Assembly: GCA_021781515.1 (NCBI GenBank) | Contig: JAJXWR010000001.1 | Coordinates: 1-64,000, forward strand | DNA length: 64,000 nucleotides | From: Pseudomonadota bacterium | Lineage (GTDB): Bacteria > Pseudomonadota > Gammaproteobacteria > Pseudomonadales > Moraxellaceae | Direction of reading: 5' to 3' | Part shown: positions 8,990 through 16,190 of the stretch, piece after piece | Layout of the letters: the number at the start of each line of letters is the position of its first letter | Numbering within the stretch: position 1 is the stretch's first letter | Program-made: the position numbers and the translations under genes | The notes under the pieces: generated by a model | Databases searched by the model: none | What the model was told of the DNA's origin: nothing | The model's input: the letters and a program-made list of their open reading frames with translations, nothing else

Positions 8990-9099
8990 TGTTACGTTAA
9001 AGTGTTTAAACGGTATTTTATCTGAAAAGCCGGATATAATATATTCGCTGCTCTGGTTTCCTGGTTCAAAATGAATGTGGTGCAGATTGCCCGAGTCGA

Positions 9100-11172
9100 G
9101 TGTGCATGTCGGTATTTGCAGAATCTGAAATTAACAACAATAAATACCGTCCTGATATCGAAGGGCTAAGGGCAATTGCGGTATGCAGTGTAGTGGCCTT
9201 CCATATCGGGATTTCTGGCTTTTCTGGTGGATTTATCGGCGTCGATATTTTTTTTGTTATCTCTGGGTATCTTATAAGCAGGATAATTTTTGATGAGGTG
9301 GCGACAAAAAATTCTTTCGATTTTAAAAAATTCTATTCACGGCGCATCAGGCGTATTCTTCCTTCGCTGGCAATAGTAATTATTGTAACCGGCATTGTTT
9401 CTTATTTTGTCATGCTTCCGCCGGATCAGAATCAATTTGGCAGGGAAGTCAGGAGTGTGGCAACAATTAATTCAAATCTTTATTTTATGGAGCGTTCTTT
9501 TGATTATTTCGATTCTGACCTCAGGCTCATGTTGCATACGTGGTCATTATCTGTCGAAGAACAGTTTTATCTGGTATGGCCGTTGACAGTTTTAGGTATA
9601 TTTAGATTTAACAAATTAACAAACTGTCATTTGATCGTTTATTCTGTAATCAGCCTTATATTTCTGTCATTTTCGTACTGTTTGTGGAATTCATTCCATG
9701 ATGAACAAAGGGCATTTTATTTAACTCAGTCAAGAGCCTGGGAATTTGCAGTAGGAGCGTTTGTTGCTGTTTTGAATGTTCGGAAAATACAGAATAGTCT
9801 GGTGGCTGTTATTTTTTCTGGCTCAGGGATAGGTCTGTTGTTTTTTTCAATTGCTTTTCTTAATGAAAACATGGTGTTCCCGGGTTATATTGCATTGTTG
9901 CCGGTGGTGGGGACTGCCCTCTGTCTGCTGGGTGGAAGCCTGAATGATAATAATTTTTTCAGCCGGAAAATACTCGCAGTCCCGATCGTGGTGTTTATTG
10001 GAAAGTTATCCTATGGATTTTATTTATGGCACTGGCCGATCCTGGCATTAGGACGTTATTACGGTGGTAATCGTTCTGTGGTGCGGGATTTTTTGCTGGG
10101 AGGCATTGTTTCTTTTATTCTTGCATTCATCTCATTTAAATATCTGGAGAACCCCGTAAGGCTCAGAAAGTATTCGTATTTTGCAAATGACAGAATAACG
10201 CTTCGCTCTGGAGGTTATCTGCTGCTGATTCTTTGGATCACAGGGAATATATCCATGTTTTTACCAGAGCACATCCCATGGATTGGTCAAAAAAGTATAC
10301 TGAAAATCAAATCTGATGTGATGCCACATTTAGCGGATTGCGATGTTCCGCAGGAAGGTATTCCCTTACCTTCCTGGAAACGTTGTCTTATTGGTCAGAC
10401 AACAGGTCCTGTAAAAATAATGGCATTAGGTGATTCTCATACCGGGCATATTGCACCATTGTACGATAAATTGGCTAAAATGTATCATGTGGCTGTACTG
10501 ATGCGTGAATTCGATGGATGTCCTCCCTTCGCTGATGTTGTGCCTGTGGGCACGAATCAGGTGCGTTTTTGGTGCACCAATTCGGCAAACGCCGTGCAGC
10601 AGGAATTGCCAATGTTGGCCAAGTCCGGTCTTTCTGCTGTTTTCATGGACATAAAATGGAATTTATATGCCAAAGGTATTCCAAAATCTGTTGGATTAAT
10701 CGCTGCGGGCAATCATGATACACCCTATGCAGAAAATAATTTTTCAGATTTTGGTTTAATGAAGGATGTTAACCAGCAAAGCTCATTGCAATTAATGGCG
10801 AAATCACTGGATAGACTATCTGAATTTTTGCAGCAACATGATTTGAAGTTGATTTTTGTACTGCCTGAACCGGAAATGCCAAAGAGTGTTCCTGAATGTA
10901 TTGCCAGTTACGGCCTTGATAAATGCAATATCAGTCGGCAATCGGTTATGGAACAGGGGAGGGTCTATCGGGATATTTTACAAAAAACGGCGCATTCGCA
11001 TAGTAATGTCAGGATTTGGGATCCATTAAATGAATTTTGTAATAATGTGACATGTTTTGCTACCGATCGTAATGGATTTCCTCGTTTTGCAGATAATAAT
11101 CATATTACGGCGACGATGGCTCGTTCTATGAGCGCTGATTTCAATGACATATTCTTATGGTCTATAAAATAG
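9100..11172 (+). CDS. Acyltransferase family 3 (OafA/YrhL-like) with C-terminal SGNH-type domain
   Basis: YRPDIEGLRAIAVCSVVAFHIG, GGFIGVDIFFVISGYLIS, multiple TM segments, MALGDSHTGHI and DNNHITATMARSM. Confidence 0.9.
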   Translation: MCMSVFAESEINNNKYRPDIEGLRAIAVCSVVAFHIGISGFSGGFIGVDIFFVISGYLISRIIFDEVATKNSFDFKKFYSRRIRRILPSLAIVIIVTGIVSYFVMLPPDQNQFGREVRSVATINSNLYFMERSFDYFDSDLRLMLHTWSLSVEEQFYLVWPLTVLGIFRFNKLTNCHLIVYSVISLIFLSFSYCLWNSFHDEQRAFYLTQSRAWEFAVGAFVAVLNVRKIQNSLVAVIFSGSGIGLLFFSIAFLNENMVFPGYIALLPVVGTALCLLGGSLNDNNFFSRKILAVPIVVFIGKLSYGFYLWHWPILALGRYYGGNRSVVRDFLLGGIVSFILAFISFKYLENPVRLRKYSYFANDRITLRSGGYLLLILWITGNISMFLPEHIPWIGQKSILKIKSDVMPHLADCDVPQEGIPLPSWKRCLIGQTTGPVKIMALGDSHTGHIAPLYDKLAKMYHVAVLMREFDGCPPFADVVPVGTNQVRFWCTNSANAVQQELPMLAKSGLSAVFMDIKWNLYAKGIPKSVGLIAAGNHDTPYAENNFSDFGLMKDVNQQSSLQLMAKSLDRLSEFLQQHDLKLIFVLPEPEMPKSVPECIASYGLDKCNISRQSVMEQGRVYRDILQKTAHSHSNVRIWDPLNEFCNNVTCFATDRNGFPRFADNNHITATMARSMSADFNDIFLWSIK

Positions 11173-11325
11173 ACAGACGGGTTTTCATCGGATGGGATTT
11201 TGTGAAAAGCTCGAATACGGAAATTTTCGTGTTGATTTTTGGTAACAGTAGGTCGGATTGCCGTCCACTGTCCTTACACACAAAGCAATTGTTCTGAGCA
11301 TCCATGACCATTGATATCAGCCGGC

Positions 11326-11568
11326 TCATTCAGTGACAACATCATATTTTCGCAATATTTCAATACCTTTAACATAGGAACTGAAATCGACGATGTCATC
11401 CGTATCCAGTGTGATTGAAAAAGCATCTTCAATGGCTGTGATCATGCCCATGTGGCCAACCGAATCCCACTGGGGCACACATTGGTACACAAATTTTTCA
11501 TCCAGTTGTTCTGATGATACAGCAAAACAGTCCATAAAAATCTGATTATATCGATCACGCCAGTTCAT
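11326..11568 (-). CDS. Acyl carrier protein-like protein
   Basis: VPQWDSVGHMGMITAIEDAFSITLDTDDIVDF, with DSVGHM matching the ACP DSL-type phosphopantetheine site; RBS-like ggag upstream of the internal ATG. Confidence 0.8.
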   Translation of the reverse strand: MNWRDRYNQIFMDCFAVSSEQLDEKFVYQCVPQWDSVGHMGMITAIEDAFSITLDTDDIVDFSSYVKGIEILRKYDVVTE

Positions 11569-11638
11569 TGTTAATCTCCATTGATTCAAAAAAACAACAC
11601 TAAAAAAATATTCTCATAAAATAAACTATACGAAATAA

Positions 11639-12295
11639 TTAGTTGAATATAGCTTTTCCATCATTTTTACGAATAACCCGTGCCGGATTTCCCACTGCAA
11701 TCATTTGATGTCCAATATCCTGAAACACCGATGACCCCATGGAAAGAATACAAGAATCACCAATCGCAACACGATCTTTGACCGTTGCATTCAAACCAAT
11801 AAAGGTTGACTTTCCAATTGAACATTTACCACCCACAACAGTTGAACTTGATATCACCGAATGGGCTCCAACAGTAATGTCATGACCAATAATAACATTA
11901 ATTTCAATCATGACATTACAACTGATTCGTGTATGACTGGAAATGAACGAAAATGGGAAGACAATCACGCCATCCGCCAACTCGGCTGTAGGTGAAATGA
12001 TCGCAGTTGGATCGATGACTTTTGTACAGGAAAACCCCATTTCTGTGACTTTAGTATAAAGGTTCTGGCGGTTTTTGGGTTCGCCCTGGGCGATCACAAA
12101 TTCGTAATTCCCCCGCTCACTGCTCAAGGATTCAAAATTCAGAACCGGGGTTTCGTACCACACCGACTCGGTTTTAAAGTCATCAACAAATACAATACGT
12201 TCCCATGTTTGATGTCGAGTTTGAATACGGCGTGCCATATCAACAATTTCGCAACCCGTACCCCCGGAACCATAAATACACAGCGTATTCAGCAT
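11639..12295 (-). CDS. NeuD/PglD-like sugar O-acyltransferase (left-handed beta-helix)
   Basis: LCIYGSGGTGCEIVDMARR N-terminus and hexapeptide-repeat C-terminus ending QDIGHQMIAVGNPARVIRKND. Confidence 0.85.
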   Translation of the reverse strand: MLNTLCIYGSGGTGCEIVDMARRIQTRHQTWERIVFVDDFKTESVWYETPVLNFESLSSERGNYEFVIAQGEPKNRQNLYTKVTEMGFSCTKVIDPTAIISPTAELADGVIVFPFSFISSHTRISCNVMIEINVIIGHDITVGAHSVISSSTVVGGKCSIGKSTFIGLNATVKDRVAIGDSCILSMGSSVFQDIGHQMIAVGNPARVIRKNDGKAIFN

Positions 12296-12303
12296 AAAGC
12301 AAC

Positions 12304-13974
12304 CTATGAACAGTGTTGAAACAATCTACGGGACAAGTATGCCAATCCTTTGATTTTGGAGAGCGCATCTTCGTCAGGGAATTTCATGTCATGTTGCAGC
12401 ATCCAGTCGACAATTTCAGACAGAGTCACCTCTCCTTCCCCAAGAACAACGGCATGGATATCATGTTCTGAAAGAACTTCCTCACTGGCAATTGTAGGAT
12501 GCGGGCCACCACAAAGAATGGGTACGTCACTATTCTGTTTACGAATGGCGGCAATCACTTCACGAAAAAAATGCTTGTAATATGACATGGTTCGCACACC
12601 AATCAGGTCGGGTTTGAATTCTGCAACAAGCATCTTGAGTTCGTCATGACTATCAAAATCTACAAAGGATTTTGCGATTCGTCCTTCAACTCTATCCTGG
12701 AACATATGGTTCAAGTACGTCACAAGCGCCAATCCGCCCAGCGGAGCTTCAACAATACGAAGTTCTGCCCGCTCATCTGTTGAATAAAACTGGGTTGCAT
12801 CAATAAAGAGAAATCTTAAAGGCCTTTGAGTACCGACACAAAATTTTGGTTTTTTTAATTCAGGATAATGAATAGGGGTTTTTGATTCTTGTGGCTGTTT
12901 GCTGAAATCGATTTCGGAACGATCAACGCGAGCCAATTTAAAAATATCATCAAAGGAGTTAATCTGACTCGGAAAATACGATTGATATTTAAAAATCAAT
13001 TCATTCTCTGTACATACCTCAAGCTGTTTTTGTAAAACATAACGCAGTCGGTCTCTATTCAGGACATAATTCTTGACAAAATCCAATCTGAGTTTTCTGG
13101 AAAATTCAGGATCAATCGTGAAGGTTGTTGGAATTGAATTATAAGGCATCGTCAAAGATTCATCAATCTGTGCTTTCGTAATTCCGTTCTCAAGAGCAAT
13201 CGTCTCAAGAACCGAACCAGGGAAAATACGAACATTATGCAAAGCGGCGAAATGTACCCATTTAATTGTTTTAATAAAATTAACTGTTGAGATAGCTTCA
13301 TCTTCAGTTTCTGTTGGAAACCCGTGCATTGCATTGACGCCAAGAATGGCATTTGGGTATTGCTCAACCATATAAGTCAGGTTTTTATGAAACTTTTCAA
13401 TATTCAGGTTTTTCTTAATCAGTTTTTGCAGTCTTGGTGAGGCTGTTTCAAGTGAAATATTCACACTTTTCACACCTCCTTCCATCATGACATCAATGGC
13501 ATCAGAATCCAGAATATCCCCACGAAGTCCACTTTGAAAATATACATTTAACTTGATTTTGTTTTTTATTAACAAGCCAAAAAATGCCATGAAGTCTTTT
13601 TTATGGACATTAAAGATGTCATCGATAAATTCAATATCACGAAAACCCATATCATACAGGTATTTAACTTCCTCATAAACATGCTCAGGCGAGCGACGGT
13701 ACAAGCGAGGAGATAACTTAATGACGTCACAGTAAATACAACGCCACGGGCACCCCCGACTCCCTTGGACTGTCATACAGTTTCGAATACCGCTCTGACC
13801 GATGTATTGATGATATTTTCGGTAATCAATCAAGCTTCGATCCAAACGCGGCAATGTATCCAGGTCCTCAATCTGCATTCGTTTTCCTGTACGCATAACC
13901 CGTAAAGACGTCATTGAATTAAAATCTTGAATCGAATTGATAATCATTTTCCTTTCGACGGTTGACGCACTCAT
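12304..13974 (-). CDS. Radical SAM protein with C-terminal B12-binding-like domain (permuted domain order)
   Basis: CPWRCIYC (CxxxCxxC) cluster motif in the N-terminal half; DLIGVRTMSYYKHFF, PILCGGPHPTIASEEVL and VVLGEGEVTLSEIVDWM B12-binding-type motifs at the C-terminus. Confidence 0.85.
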   Translation of the reverse strand: MSASTVERKMIINSIQDFNSMTSLRVMRTGKRMQIEDLDTLPRLDRSLIDYRKYHQYIGQSGIRNCMTVQGSRGCPWRCIYCDVIKLSPRLYRRSPEHVYEEVKYLYDMGFRDIEFIDDIFNVHKKDFMAFFGLLIKNKIKLNVYFQSGLRGDILDSDAIDVMMEGGVKSVNISLETASPRLQKLIKKNLNIEKFHKNLTYMVEQYPNAILGVNAMHGFPTETEDEAISTVNFIKTIKWVHFAALHNVRIFPGSVLETIALENGITKAQIDESLTMPYNSIPTTFTIDPEFSRKLRLDFVKNYVLNRDRLRYVLQKQLEVCTENELIFKYQSYFPSQINSFDDIFKLARVDRSEIDFSKQPQESKTPIHYPELKKPKFCVGTQRPLRFLFIDATQFYSTDERAELRIVEAPLGGLALVTYLNHMFQDRVEGRIAKSFVDFDSHDELKMLVAEFKPDLIGVRTMSYYKHFFREVIAAIRKQNSDVPILCGGPHPTIASEEVLSEHDIHAVVLGEGEVTLSEIVDWMLQHDMKFPDEDALSKIKGLAYLSRRLFQHCS

Positions 13975-14085
13975 GTCTTTACCTCATCTGTCCAGTATAA
14001 AGATTTCAGACAATAACTTCGATTAATATTCACCAAAATTCAGATTACGCAAGAACTCAAATTTACAAAACCAGTCTCTACAAAA

Positions 14086-14955
14086 TCAGTTTCTAGAGAA
14101 AACAAAATTTTCCTCACCAAAATAGTTCTGGACTCGTTTATGTGACTCAATTCTGAAATCATAGTATTCAAGAACAGATTTGCAGTACTCAAATTGTTCT
14201 CCTGATTCATCCAGTTCGATAAAAATTTTTTTTAATCCATCATACCCAAGAGTGTTTTGCATTCCAGAGAGAATCTTTTTTTCAGAACCATCAACATCGA
14301 TTTTGATATATTCCGGTTTTTCCAAACCTGTAAAATCAATAAAATCATCCATGCGGTACTTGAGAGTAGGCTGAACAAAGTCGGGAGTGAATTTTCGATC
14401 GCAACGTTTTATGGGCTGATCCAGAATTTTTAAATGCCCACCTACTTCAAATTTTTCAATGTAGATGGAACCAATCCCGCCTTCATCAGTCAACGCTACG
14501 TTGAAAAATTTCAGAGGATGTCTAAAACATTGATGATTAAGAAAACTATTGTATGAAAGCAGGAAATAATTGCTCGCATCGGGTTCAAAACAATAGACTT
14601 TTTTTCGTGTCGCTGCTGCATACACAGCAAAAAGTCCATTACTCGCTCCAACATCGTAATAAATAGCATCATCCGGAATATGATCAATGAAGTCCAACTG
14701 GTCCGGCTCAATATATTCCTGGCCAAGCGCTTGCCACAGTAACCTTCTCGAAGGAACATAAAATTGCAGATTAATATCCCTTATTAGACTGTAAGTCGTA
14801 TCCTTTATCTCCTCACATAAAACGGCATTACGATAGCGTTCTTCTCCGGCCAAAGATATCAGATCTACTCGTTCGATTAAGGGATCCGGATTTAGCCCTA
14901 AGGCACACCTGCGATGGTACTCACTGATCTGATTTTTCTGCTCTATGTCCGTCAT
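14086..14955 (-). CDS. FkbM family methyltransferase
   Basis: YDVGASNGLFAVYAA, CFEPDASNYFLL and KPEYIKIDVDGSEKKILSGM motifs. Confidence 0.88.
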   Translation of the reverse strand: MTDIEQKNQISEYHRRCALGLNPDPLIERVDLISLAGEERYRNAVLCEEIKDTTYSLIRDINLQFYVPSRRLLWQALGQEYIEPDQLDFIDHIPDDAIYYDVGASNGLFAVYAAATRKKVYCFEPDASNYFLLSYNSFLNHQCFRHPLKFFNVALTDEGGIGSIYIEKFEVGGHLKILDQPIKRCDRKFTPDFVQPTLKYRMDDFIDFTGLEKPEYIKIDVDGSEKKILSGMQNTLGYDGLKKIFIELDESGEQFEYCKSVLEYYDFRIESHKRVQNYFGEENFVFSRN

Positions 14956-15589
14956 CTGATTTTATCCTTCGTTCAAGGTGATTCATGACTGTTTCACCTG
15001 TGTTTTAAAAGTATCGGAAACGTGCGCCACCACCTGAATTCTCGTAAGGCTTTAGTGCTCAAGCAAAAAACGAAAATTCGCAGTCAGGTCATATGTATCA
15101 GCTAAGGCAAGTCTCAACAAGGGCACTGTCTGAACCTATAAAGCAGGATGATCAGCCACAGCGCATCTCAATCCATCCGGCACACGTTTTTTCAACGGTG
15201 ACTACCAGTCAGGAATGATGATAAATCGTCTTAAGCGCATTCTGACACAGTGGTATAATTGTATGCATATTTTGTGCCCAAGCTAAAATTTCTTGTTTGT
15301 CAAGAAGCATTGCTGCTGACAGCGAATCTTAACAAATTGATTTTGTTTGTATAAAAGCAATCTCGTTGCTTTTTTTCAAATAAAGTGCACTAGATAATTC
15401 AAATTTGTATTTTTCTTGGTACACCTCCGGATTATTGACGTTTCCGATCGAGTGAATATAAATTAAACTGTCGTACTAACTGAGCGGTCGCATAATCGAT
15501 TTTGATAATTTCGGAACAATATGCATGTGAAACTACAGTAAGTTTACGTCAAGATTTTCCGTTCTGTAAGACGTATCGTCGAAAAACCC

Positions 15590-15885
15590 ATGGCCATCTG
15601 TCGCCGCCATCATGAGCTAATGGCAACTGCTCAGCATGCCAGATACCTGCTGATCGGTGAGCATTTGTATGCGGATACAAACCGGGCGTCGTAACGGAAT
15701 CTGGTGGCAGCAATATTCCGTCTGGAACAAAAAACCGGCCGGCACTGAGGCGTATGGTGGTGATGTGGGTTCGTGTGATATTGATTCAACGTCCCGGGCT
15801 GGAGGTGCATTTACCGGAAGTAGATAATCTGTGCGAGTTAAAAATCATGTTGGCTGATTATTGTGTGGAATGGGGCAGGGAATGA
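15590..15885 (+). pseudogene. Decayed Rpn/PD-(D/E)XK transposase-like fragments
   Basis: Fragments RYLLIGEHLYADTNRAS*RNLVAAIFRLEQ and, in another frame, RVILIQRPGLEVHLPEVDNLCELKIMLADYCVEW resemble Rpn-family segments; stops and frameshifts between them. Confidence 0.5.
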
Positions 15886-15917
15886 AAAGCGGAGGGGATG
15901 GGAGGCAAGAGGGAGTG

Positions 15918-16190
15918 TAACAAAGGGATGCACTGGCCTTGCAAAACTTATTGGCAATGAGCTTGAGGCGGCCATACTGAGCGGTGAAATCCCAGCCAAT
16001 CCAGCGATCACGTACGCCACACTTGAGTGCTGCAGCCGACAGGTTCAATTGGGCGACCCACTGATCCTGCCAAGTGGCAATGTACCCAATGGTTTCACCA
16101 ATTTTGGTCAGATCGCCCAGATAATGGTGCTGTGCGCTTTGTGCGGTATGGGTTGCATGGGTGAATCTTACTCGTGCTGGTCGAATGAAC
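15918..16190 (-). pseudogene. Truncated DUF4338/DruA-like protein fragment
   Basis: Minus-strand translation FIRPARVRFTHATHTAQSAQHHYLGDLTKIGETIGYIATWQDQWVAQLNLSAAALKCGVRDRWIGWDFTAQYGRLKLIANKF matches the HHYLG...SAAALKC..RD.WIGW......RL.LIAN pattern of DUF4338; no intact ORF. Confidence 0.6.

Follow-up and report, generated by a model that had tools for sequence, protein, structure and literature searches.

A circularly permuted cobalamin-dependent radical SAM protein, and its relatives embedded in adenylation domains

The 64,000-nucleotide stretch of a Moraxellaceae genome analysed here (positions 1 to 64,000 of contig JAJXWR010000001.1, hereafter the window) encodes a protein, designated P0001, in which a radical S-adenosylmethionine (SAM or AdoMet) barrel is followed by a B12-binding domain. 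This locus raises the question of whether P0001 is a circular permutation of a cobalamin-dependent radical SAM (Cbl-rSAM) enzyme, as had been proposed in a first-pass annotation of the DNA, and what role such an enzyme might have. P0001 shares with the class-1 Cbl-rSAM enzymes (OxsB, TsrM and TokK, PMC13331322; CysS) a PF02310-type B12 domain, a PF04055 barrel carrying a CxxxCxxC motif and a C-terminal helical domain. However, the B12 domain of class-1 enzymes is N-terminal, whereas that of P0001 comes after the barrel and the helical domain, with the protein both starting and ending within the linker that joins the B12 and radical SAM parts. A class-1 enzyme permuted at this linker allows the importance of covalent order to be tested directly. 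The features of P0001 are as follows.

12304..13974, minus strand: P0001, circularly permuted cobalamin-dependent radical SAM protein, 556 aa, ATG start
13822..13890, minus strand: N-terminal half of the B12-rSAM linker, residues 29-51, TGKRMQIEDLDTLPRLDRSLIDY, aligned with the linker upstream of the barrel in the normal-order relatives L022, L023 and L144
13273..13761, minus strand: radical SAM core, PF04055, residues 72-234 (Pfam), with an AlphaFold2 (AF2) predicted local distance difference test (pLDDT) score of about 80-98 across much of residues 90-220
13729..13752, minus strand: CxxxCxxC [4Fe-4S]-AdoMet motif, residues 75-82, identified from the sequence and kept in 46/47 permuted proteins
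12910..13122, minus strand: C-terminal helical domain of the radical SAM unit, about residues 285-355, conserved across the permuted set, with the natural C-terminal end of normal-order L144 aligning to it (profile match to position 330)
12334..12822, minus strand: C-terminal B12-binding domain, about residues 385-547 (PF02310 match 439-521), from Pfam and homology to normal-order relatives, with five strand-helix repeats in a low-confidence AF2 model
12331..12357, minus strand: C-terminal half of the linker, KIKGLAYLS, residues 540-548, at the protein end, corresponding in sequence to the B12-to-rSAM linker of normal-order proteins

The order of parts in P0001 is therefore linker-half, radical SAM barrel, C-terminal helical domain, a short new linker, B12-binding domain and linker-half. 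Both Pfam matches lie above the curated cut-offs, with E-values of 9e-21 for PF04055 and 4.7e-15 for PF02310, and they follow the order given by the first-pass annotation, which had placed the cluster CPWRCIYC (residues 75-82) and the barrel ahead of a B12 domain at about residues 380-540. The linker-type segment which it had seen in front of the barrel was found as the half-linker QIEDLDTLPRLDRSLIDY at residues 34-51, the chain starting shortly before TGKRMQIEDLDTLPRLDRSLIDY. Its reading of the C-terminus as KIKGLAYLSR was correct in part, in that KIKGLAYLS is present and the protein ends in the linker; the true end, however, reads ...KIKGLAYLSRRLFQHCS, just past this motif. Both termini aligned to the B12-rSAM linker of normal-order proteins, again as had been suggested. 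P0001 is a free-standing open reading frame (ORF) present once in the genome of the window, and Pfam found no match in it to an adenylation (A) domain or to DUF512.

When native P0001 was compared with the NCBIfam profiles of normal-order Cbl-rSAM families (such as TIGR04479, BchE and TIGR04385), many of them aligned in two separate stretches. Rotation of the protein, with the B12 part placed in front, gave single matches that crossed the junction, among them TIGR04385 (50-449 to 20-413 of 438), BchE, HpnJ and the PhpK family (66-413 to 85-415). The converse comparison made use of L144, a normal-order relative of 531 aa with B12, radical SAM and helical C-terminal domains, and a hidden Markov model (HMM) of the permuted family built from 45 permuted proteins. 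Native L144 matched this profile in swapped stretches, at positions 378-521 (85.9 bits) and then 21-330 (267.9 bits), whereas L144 rotated at the linker gave one contiguous alignment over positions 23-520 with 358.1 bits, and was about 31-34% identical to many permuted proteins over some 505-545 residues. The same domain swap was seen with the normal-order proteins L022 and L023, yet rotation left their two stretches unfused because of the weak alignment of their C-terminal domain. In a tree built on the barrel, the permuted proteins all grouped as one clade apart from 14 normal-order relatives (support 100/99), which is consistent with one origin of the permutation. The rotation tests, agreeing in both directions, uphold the circular permutation favoured by the first-pass annotation, and it is considered nearly certain from these alignments that P0001 is a true circular permutation of a class-1 (PF02310-type) Cbl-rSAM enzyme. 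The alternative it had offered, the middle of an ancestral tandem (B12-rSAM)2 protein, gained no direct support, with no tandem protein seen; a duplication intermediate behind the permutation is possible.

A genomic search for homologues with the same order, as the first-pass annotation had suggested, recovered two further stand-alone proteins and 44 distinct embedded modules. The stand-alone proteins belong to one genus in another family of the order of the window, and are 63% and 48% identical to P0001 from end to end with an identical Pfam order. At the level of the phylum of the window, two samples (299 and 349 genomes) yielded no further permuted proteins, and neither did one of 321 genomes from its class or one of 392 from its order. 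A contig search with P0001 gave one match, of 41% identity over residues 20-550, located inside a 4063-aa nonribosomal peptide synthetase (NRPS) of a Candidatus Aminicenantes metagenome-assembled genome (MAG). This 10.4 Mb MAG, G195, carries about 33 copies of the radical SAM-B12 unit. Embedded copies were also found in six other Aminicenantia genomes from a class sample of 142, while in a sample of 247 genomes of the same phylum they occurred only in G195. The permuted set thus comprises 47 proteins, three stand-alone and 44 embedded, the latter from seven Aminicenantia genomes. The only one to lack the CxxxCxxC motif is an embedded module, L040 (G195:C47), which is possibly inactive judging from this loss. 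Viral scans with P0001 and A1 as queries detected no permuted relative, and a tblastn search of plasmids returned partial radical SAM matches only, none of them reaching 80% coverage; spread of the permuted enzyme by viruses or plasmids was rejected on these grounds.

This distribution bears on the possibility that P0001 is an assembly error, a pseudogene or a chance adjacency of domains, which is extremely improbable. It is true that the genome assembly of the window consists of 142 contigs and that the region is a low-GC island. However, the frame is open for 559 codons without stops and its product is 63% identical, end to end, to that of an independent genome. The first-pass annotation had also allowed for a rearrangement artefact among homologues of normal order, but the permuted order is shared by ten genomes in two phyla, a conservation that already refutes an artefact. 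As this order is conserved in the two further stand-alone proteins and the 44 embedded modules, it reflects neither chance nor a local rearrangement. Chance adjacency of the domains was also ruled out by the profile scores and the rotation tests.

According to a 2025 review, the only characterised Cbl-rSAM enzyme with a C-terminal cobalamin domain is Mmp10, in which this domain has a distinct four-stranded fold (PMC13331322). P0001 and Mmp10 share the gross order of a radical SAM barrel followed by a cobalamin domain, and Mmp10 was among the matches of a fold search with the P0001 model (E 3e-4), but membership of the Mmp10/DUF512 (class 2) group, with a naturally C-terminal cobalamin domain, is highly improbable. 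The B12 domain of P0001 is a PF02310 match homologous to the domain of N-terminal-type relatives, and five strands were predicted for it, though weakly and in a low-confidence model, against the four of Mmp10. This membership was rejected on domain homology, with P0001 carrying an ordinary class-1 domain relocated by permutation. AF2 was run on P0001 with 2 and with 23 sequences, giving pLDDT values of 44.5 and 62.5, respectively; viral normal-order B12 fragments misplaced by the aligner were left out, with the exception of L097, one partly misplaced row. The fold search recovered mainly the barrel, for which the radical SAM dehydratase AprD4 was the best match. The first-pass annotation had suggested that a model might show the C-terminal domain seated over the barrel; the low-confidence models gave five strand-helix repeats in the C-terminal region, which are only a hint of such units, and did not establish this placement.

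Nearly all Aminicenantia copies of the radical SAM-B12 unit interrupt an NRPS adenylation domain, at a site flanked by motifs a2 and a3. The unit is preceded by a2 (LKAGGAYLPIDP..., then ...LLLT) and lies ahead of a3 (...ILLLDE....NPEPVNQP.DLAYVIYTSGSTGKPKG). The distance between the two motifs was 619-634 aa in 38 interrupted frames, some of these being overlapping fetches of one gene, compared with 59-82 aa where A domains of these genomes are uninterrupted. The modules have the domain string C-A(N)-INS-A(C)-T, and most retain the A3 and A4/A5 motifs. The insertion of permuted homologues between a2 and a3 of Aminicenantia A domains is thereby shown at the level of sequence. The residues of the specificity pocket vary widely among modules with inserts, and by their specificity codes the pockets are presumably Ile-like (the commonest), Thr-, Glu-, Pro-, Leu- and Val-like. 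It should also be noted that a clade with a support of 99, comprising L030, L042, L061, L065 and the second L027 unit (from Aminicenantia genomes G195, G815 and G817), shows a different arrangement of an intact A domain, a vestigial A fragment or none, the radical SAM-B12 unit and a thiolation (T) domain, with only the C-terminal part of the intact A domain visible where the stretch was cut. This suggests that the unit is kept even when its host A domain has decayed, and that it need not lie within a functional A domain to act for a T domain.

Interrupted A domains are known from TioN and MarQ, in which a classical methyltransferase is inserted between a2 and a3 (PMC11355689). The Aminicenantia modules resemble these in having a tailoring catalytic domain at the same site, combining adenylation and a predicted modification in one module, but differ in the nature of the insert, which is not a classical SAM methyltransferase but a B12/radical SAM enzyme with two cofactors, about 550 aa in length. 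The reviews of interrupted A domains consulted name methyltransferase, oxidase, monooxygenase and reductase inserts, with a B12/radical SAM insert not among them (PMC11355689). A search of the open-access literature on interrupted adenylation domains, radical SAM, cobalamin, Aminicenantes and circular permutation, its scope leaving aside preprints, most subscription papers and key reviews, found no description of the arrangement, and within this limited search A domains interrupted by radical SAM-B12 units appear to be undescribed. A 2020 survey of interrupted A domains by Lundy reportedly lists classical methyltransferase inserts only. The permuted class-1 enzyme is here a compact unit placed by evolution inside another enzyme. 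Should the embedded copies be active, unactivated C-H bonds could be functionalised within an assembly-line module, which would be of interest to NRPS engineers, and the Aminicenantia would be a rich source of unusual peptides. With about 33 interrupted modules, G195 has a very large and apparently unstudied peptide-making capacity.

The stand-alone form occurs in a different setting. Three genes surround P0001 in the window.

14086..14955, minus strand: FkbM-family methyltransferase, upstream gene (PF05050, TIGR01444), 44% identical to its neighbour in G1071
11639..12295, minus strand: NeuD/PglD-type hexapeptide sugar acyltransferase, 8 bp downstream of P0001 (TIGR03570 above cut-off), 49% identical to the G1071 equivalent
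11326..11568, minus strand: small acyl-carrier-like protein with a PQWDSVGHM motif (weak NCBIfam acyl carrier protein match, E 0.0085, no Pfam match), 74% identical to an ACP-like protein of G000:C88 and 48% to that of G1071

The operon thus runs from the FkbM methyltransferase through the permuted radical SAM protein and the NeuD/PglD-type acyltransferase to the small acyl carrier protein (ACP)-like protein. Equivalents of all four genes, at 44-63% identity, are carried by G1071, where the cluster contains FkbM, PglD, permuted radical SAM, ACP, AMP-ligase, LuxE, LuxC, FabA-like and GMC oxidoreductase genes with transketolase halves nearby, and an FlrA/FleQ-type regulator at its edge. In G908, the cluster of permuted radical SAM, PglD, PhyH, transketolase halves, short-chain dehydrogenase/reductase (SDR), FabA-like, LuxC, LuxE and AMP-ligase genes adjoins fliE/fliF/fliG-like flagellar genes; the stretch examined does not cover the ACP. 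The rest of this cassette in the genome of the window lies on contig C88, where a twin ACP-like gene (L140) sits in an AMP-ligase/LuxE/LuxC/FabA-like/transketolase/GMC/DegT cluster, with no flagellar genes within the 20 kb examined. The twins, at 11326-11568 of the window and 12181-12426 of L140, are 74% identical. By gene order and homology, linkage of the stand-alone form with PglD, FkbM and ACP-like genes is shown.

ACP, AMP-ligase, LuxE and LuxC genes occur together in one cluster both on G000:C88 and in G1071. Flagellar glycosylation islands are known to carry such an ACP/AMP-synthetase/LuxE/LuxC set, as described in the parts consulted of reports on Aeromonas group II islands (PMC7874193) and Enterobacteriaceae (PMC4875605). 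A set of the same kind is present in the genome of the window and in the two relatives, where it lies beside flagellar genes (G908) or an FlrA-type regulator (G1071). In contrast, the same parts of these reports do not mention a radical SAM enzyme or transketolase halves (PMC7874193; PMC4875605), and in the genome of the window the cassette is on a separate contig, the radical SAM operon lying near a type IV pilin.

Taken over both contexts, the reading preferred here, with a probability of about 0.6, is that P0001 is a cobalamin-dependent radical SAM enzyme, probably a C-methyltransferase, that acts on carrier-bound substrates in the synthesis of acyl groups for surface glycans (stand-alone form) and in NRPS modules (embedded form). 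As the cut lies in the inter-domain linker, the B12 domain of the permuted enzyme would still cap the barrel, which would bring both new termini close together and make the unit insertable into a surface loop of another domain. With AdoMet and cobalamin, the enzyme would modify, most probably by C-methylation, a substrate held on phosphopantetheine. A phosphopantetheine carrier, ACP or T domain, is common to both contexts and suggests that the substrate is carrier-bound, which by analogy seems fairly likely. In the window, the AMP-ligase/LuxE/LuxC/FabA-like/transketolase cassette would build this substrate as an acyl group on the small ACP, and the PglD-type transferase would then pass it to an amino sugar in a surface glycan, which would be pilin-linked in the window and flagellar in the relatives. 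For the Aminicenantia modules, the substrate would be the aminoacyl group freshly loaded on the neighbouring T domain. The precedents for both the carrier-bound substrate and C-methylation are TokK and CysS, class-1 relatives whose structures were solved with pantetheinylated substrates (PDB titles); for methyl transfer itself, the analogy leaves the chances evenly balanced. The wider proposal, that the permuted unit defines a class of interrupted A domains carrying out radical C-methylation or another C-H modification of a carrier-bound amino acid, dozens of times in one Aminicenantia genome, with stand-alone cousins acting on acyl-ACPs for surface glycans, may be given even odds.

Several points weigh against this reading. 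The low-confidence AF2 models lend no support to a B12 domain docked against the barrel, and to our knowledge there is no sequence marker that proves methyl transfer. The putative ACP of the window was assigned from weak profile matches and conservation, the diverse specificity residues of the interrupted A domains appear to single out no one substrate position, and the substrate could be a sugar, as PglD and FkbM also act on sugars. It is unlikely, though conceivable, that the same permuted enzyme performs non-methyl chemistry, such as C-alpha epimerisation, dehydration or oxidative rearrangement of a carrier-bound group, with cobalamin in another role. Non-methylating members of the family exist, namely OxsB with its ring contraction (PMC13331322) and BchE, a cyclase by its NCBIfam name; AprD4 as the best fold match for the barrel and the diversity of the specificity residues, which suits a backbone-level reaction, point the same way. 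However, TokK and CysS, the class-1 enzymes that depend on pantetheine, are methylases, and the best NCBIfam profile over the barrel and B12 domain of P0001 is that of the PhpK P-methyltransferase family (TIGR04479). P0001 is far below the cut-off of this profile (110.5 bits native and 113.9 rotated, against 600), and differs from the PhpK family in its permuted order and in that no phosphinate pathway was seen. That the stand-alone enzyme acts on a nucleotide- or lipid-linked amino sugar in place of an ACP-bound acyl chain is rather improbable. Its nearest conserved neighbours, the PglD acyltransferase and FkbM methyltransferase, are indeed typical glycan-tailoring enzymes, and normal-order L144 also adjoins an FkbM-like frame, but action on a sugar leaves unexplained both the ACP duplicate in the operon of the window and the T-domain context of the embedded homologues.

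The direction of the transfer between the two forms may also be asked. The inserts may derive from a stand-alone permuted ancestor, or the stand-alone proteins may have been released from an NRPS A domain, such a release being somewhat unlikely. Embedded copies outnumber stand-alone ones by 44 to 3 among those found, and the N-terminal sequence SMTSLRVM of P0001 is similar to the entry motif conserved in the inserts (SITSLKNM, SFTSLQGL), both of which would suit release. On the other hand, the stand-alone protein L135 begins directly in the linker without an extension of the SMTSLRVM type, and the stand-alone clade (SH-aLRT 97) and the insert clade (74) are separate in a tree that does not fix the root. 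There was no support for an A-domain remnant at the N-terminal end of P0001, as uninterrupted A domains of the same genomes have no SFTSLQ-type motif.

The surroundings of the operon in the window are also distinct in composition. GC content is about 38-44% over roughly 9.0-16 kb, compared with about 50%, and this low-GC stretch comes after genes for minor pilins, PilY1 and a ComP-type (type IV) pilin; the region of about 9000-16000 looks like a horizontally acquired pilin-glycan cassette. The stretch also holds an OafA-type acyltransferase/SGNH gene, and an IS66-type transposase is encoded at 310-1740. Similar neighbours occur beside normal-order relatives: in L074 (9755-11302 and 11361-13223), one such relative, as L022, adjoins an acyltransferase with AT3/SGNH-like sequence, as in the window, and in L144/L145 (G241) a frame resembling an FkbM methyltransferase comes next after the closest normal-order relative, again as in the window.
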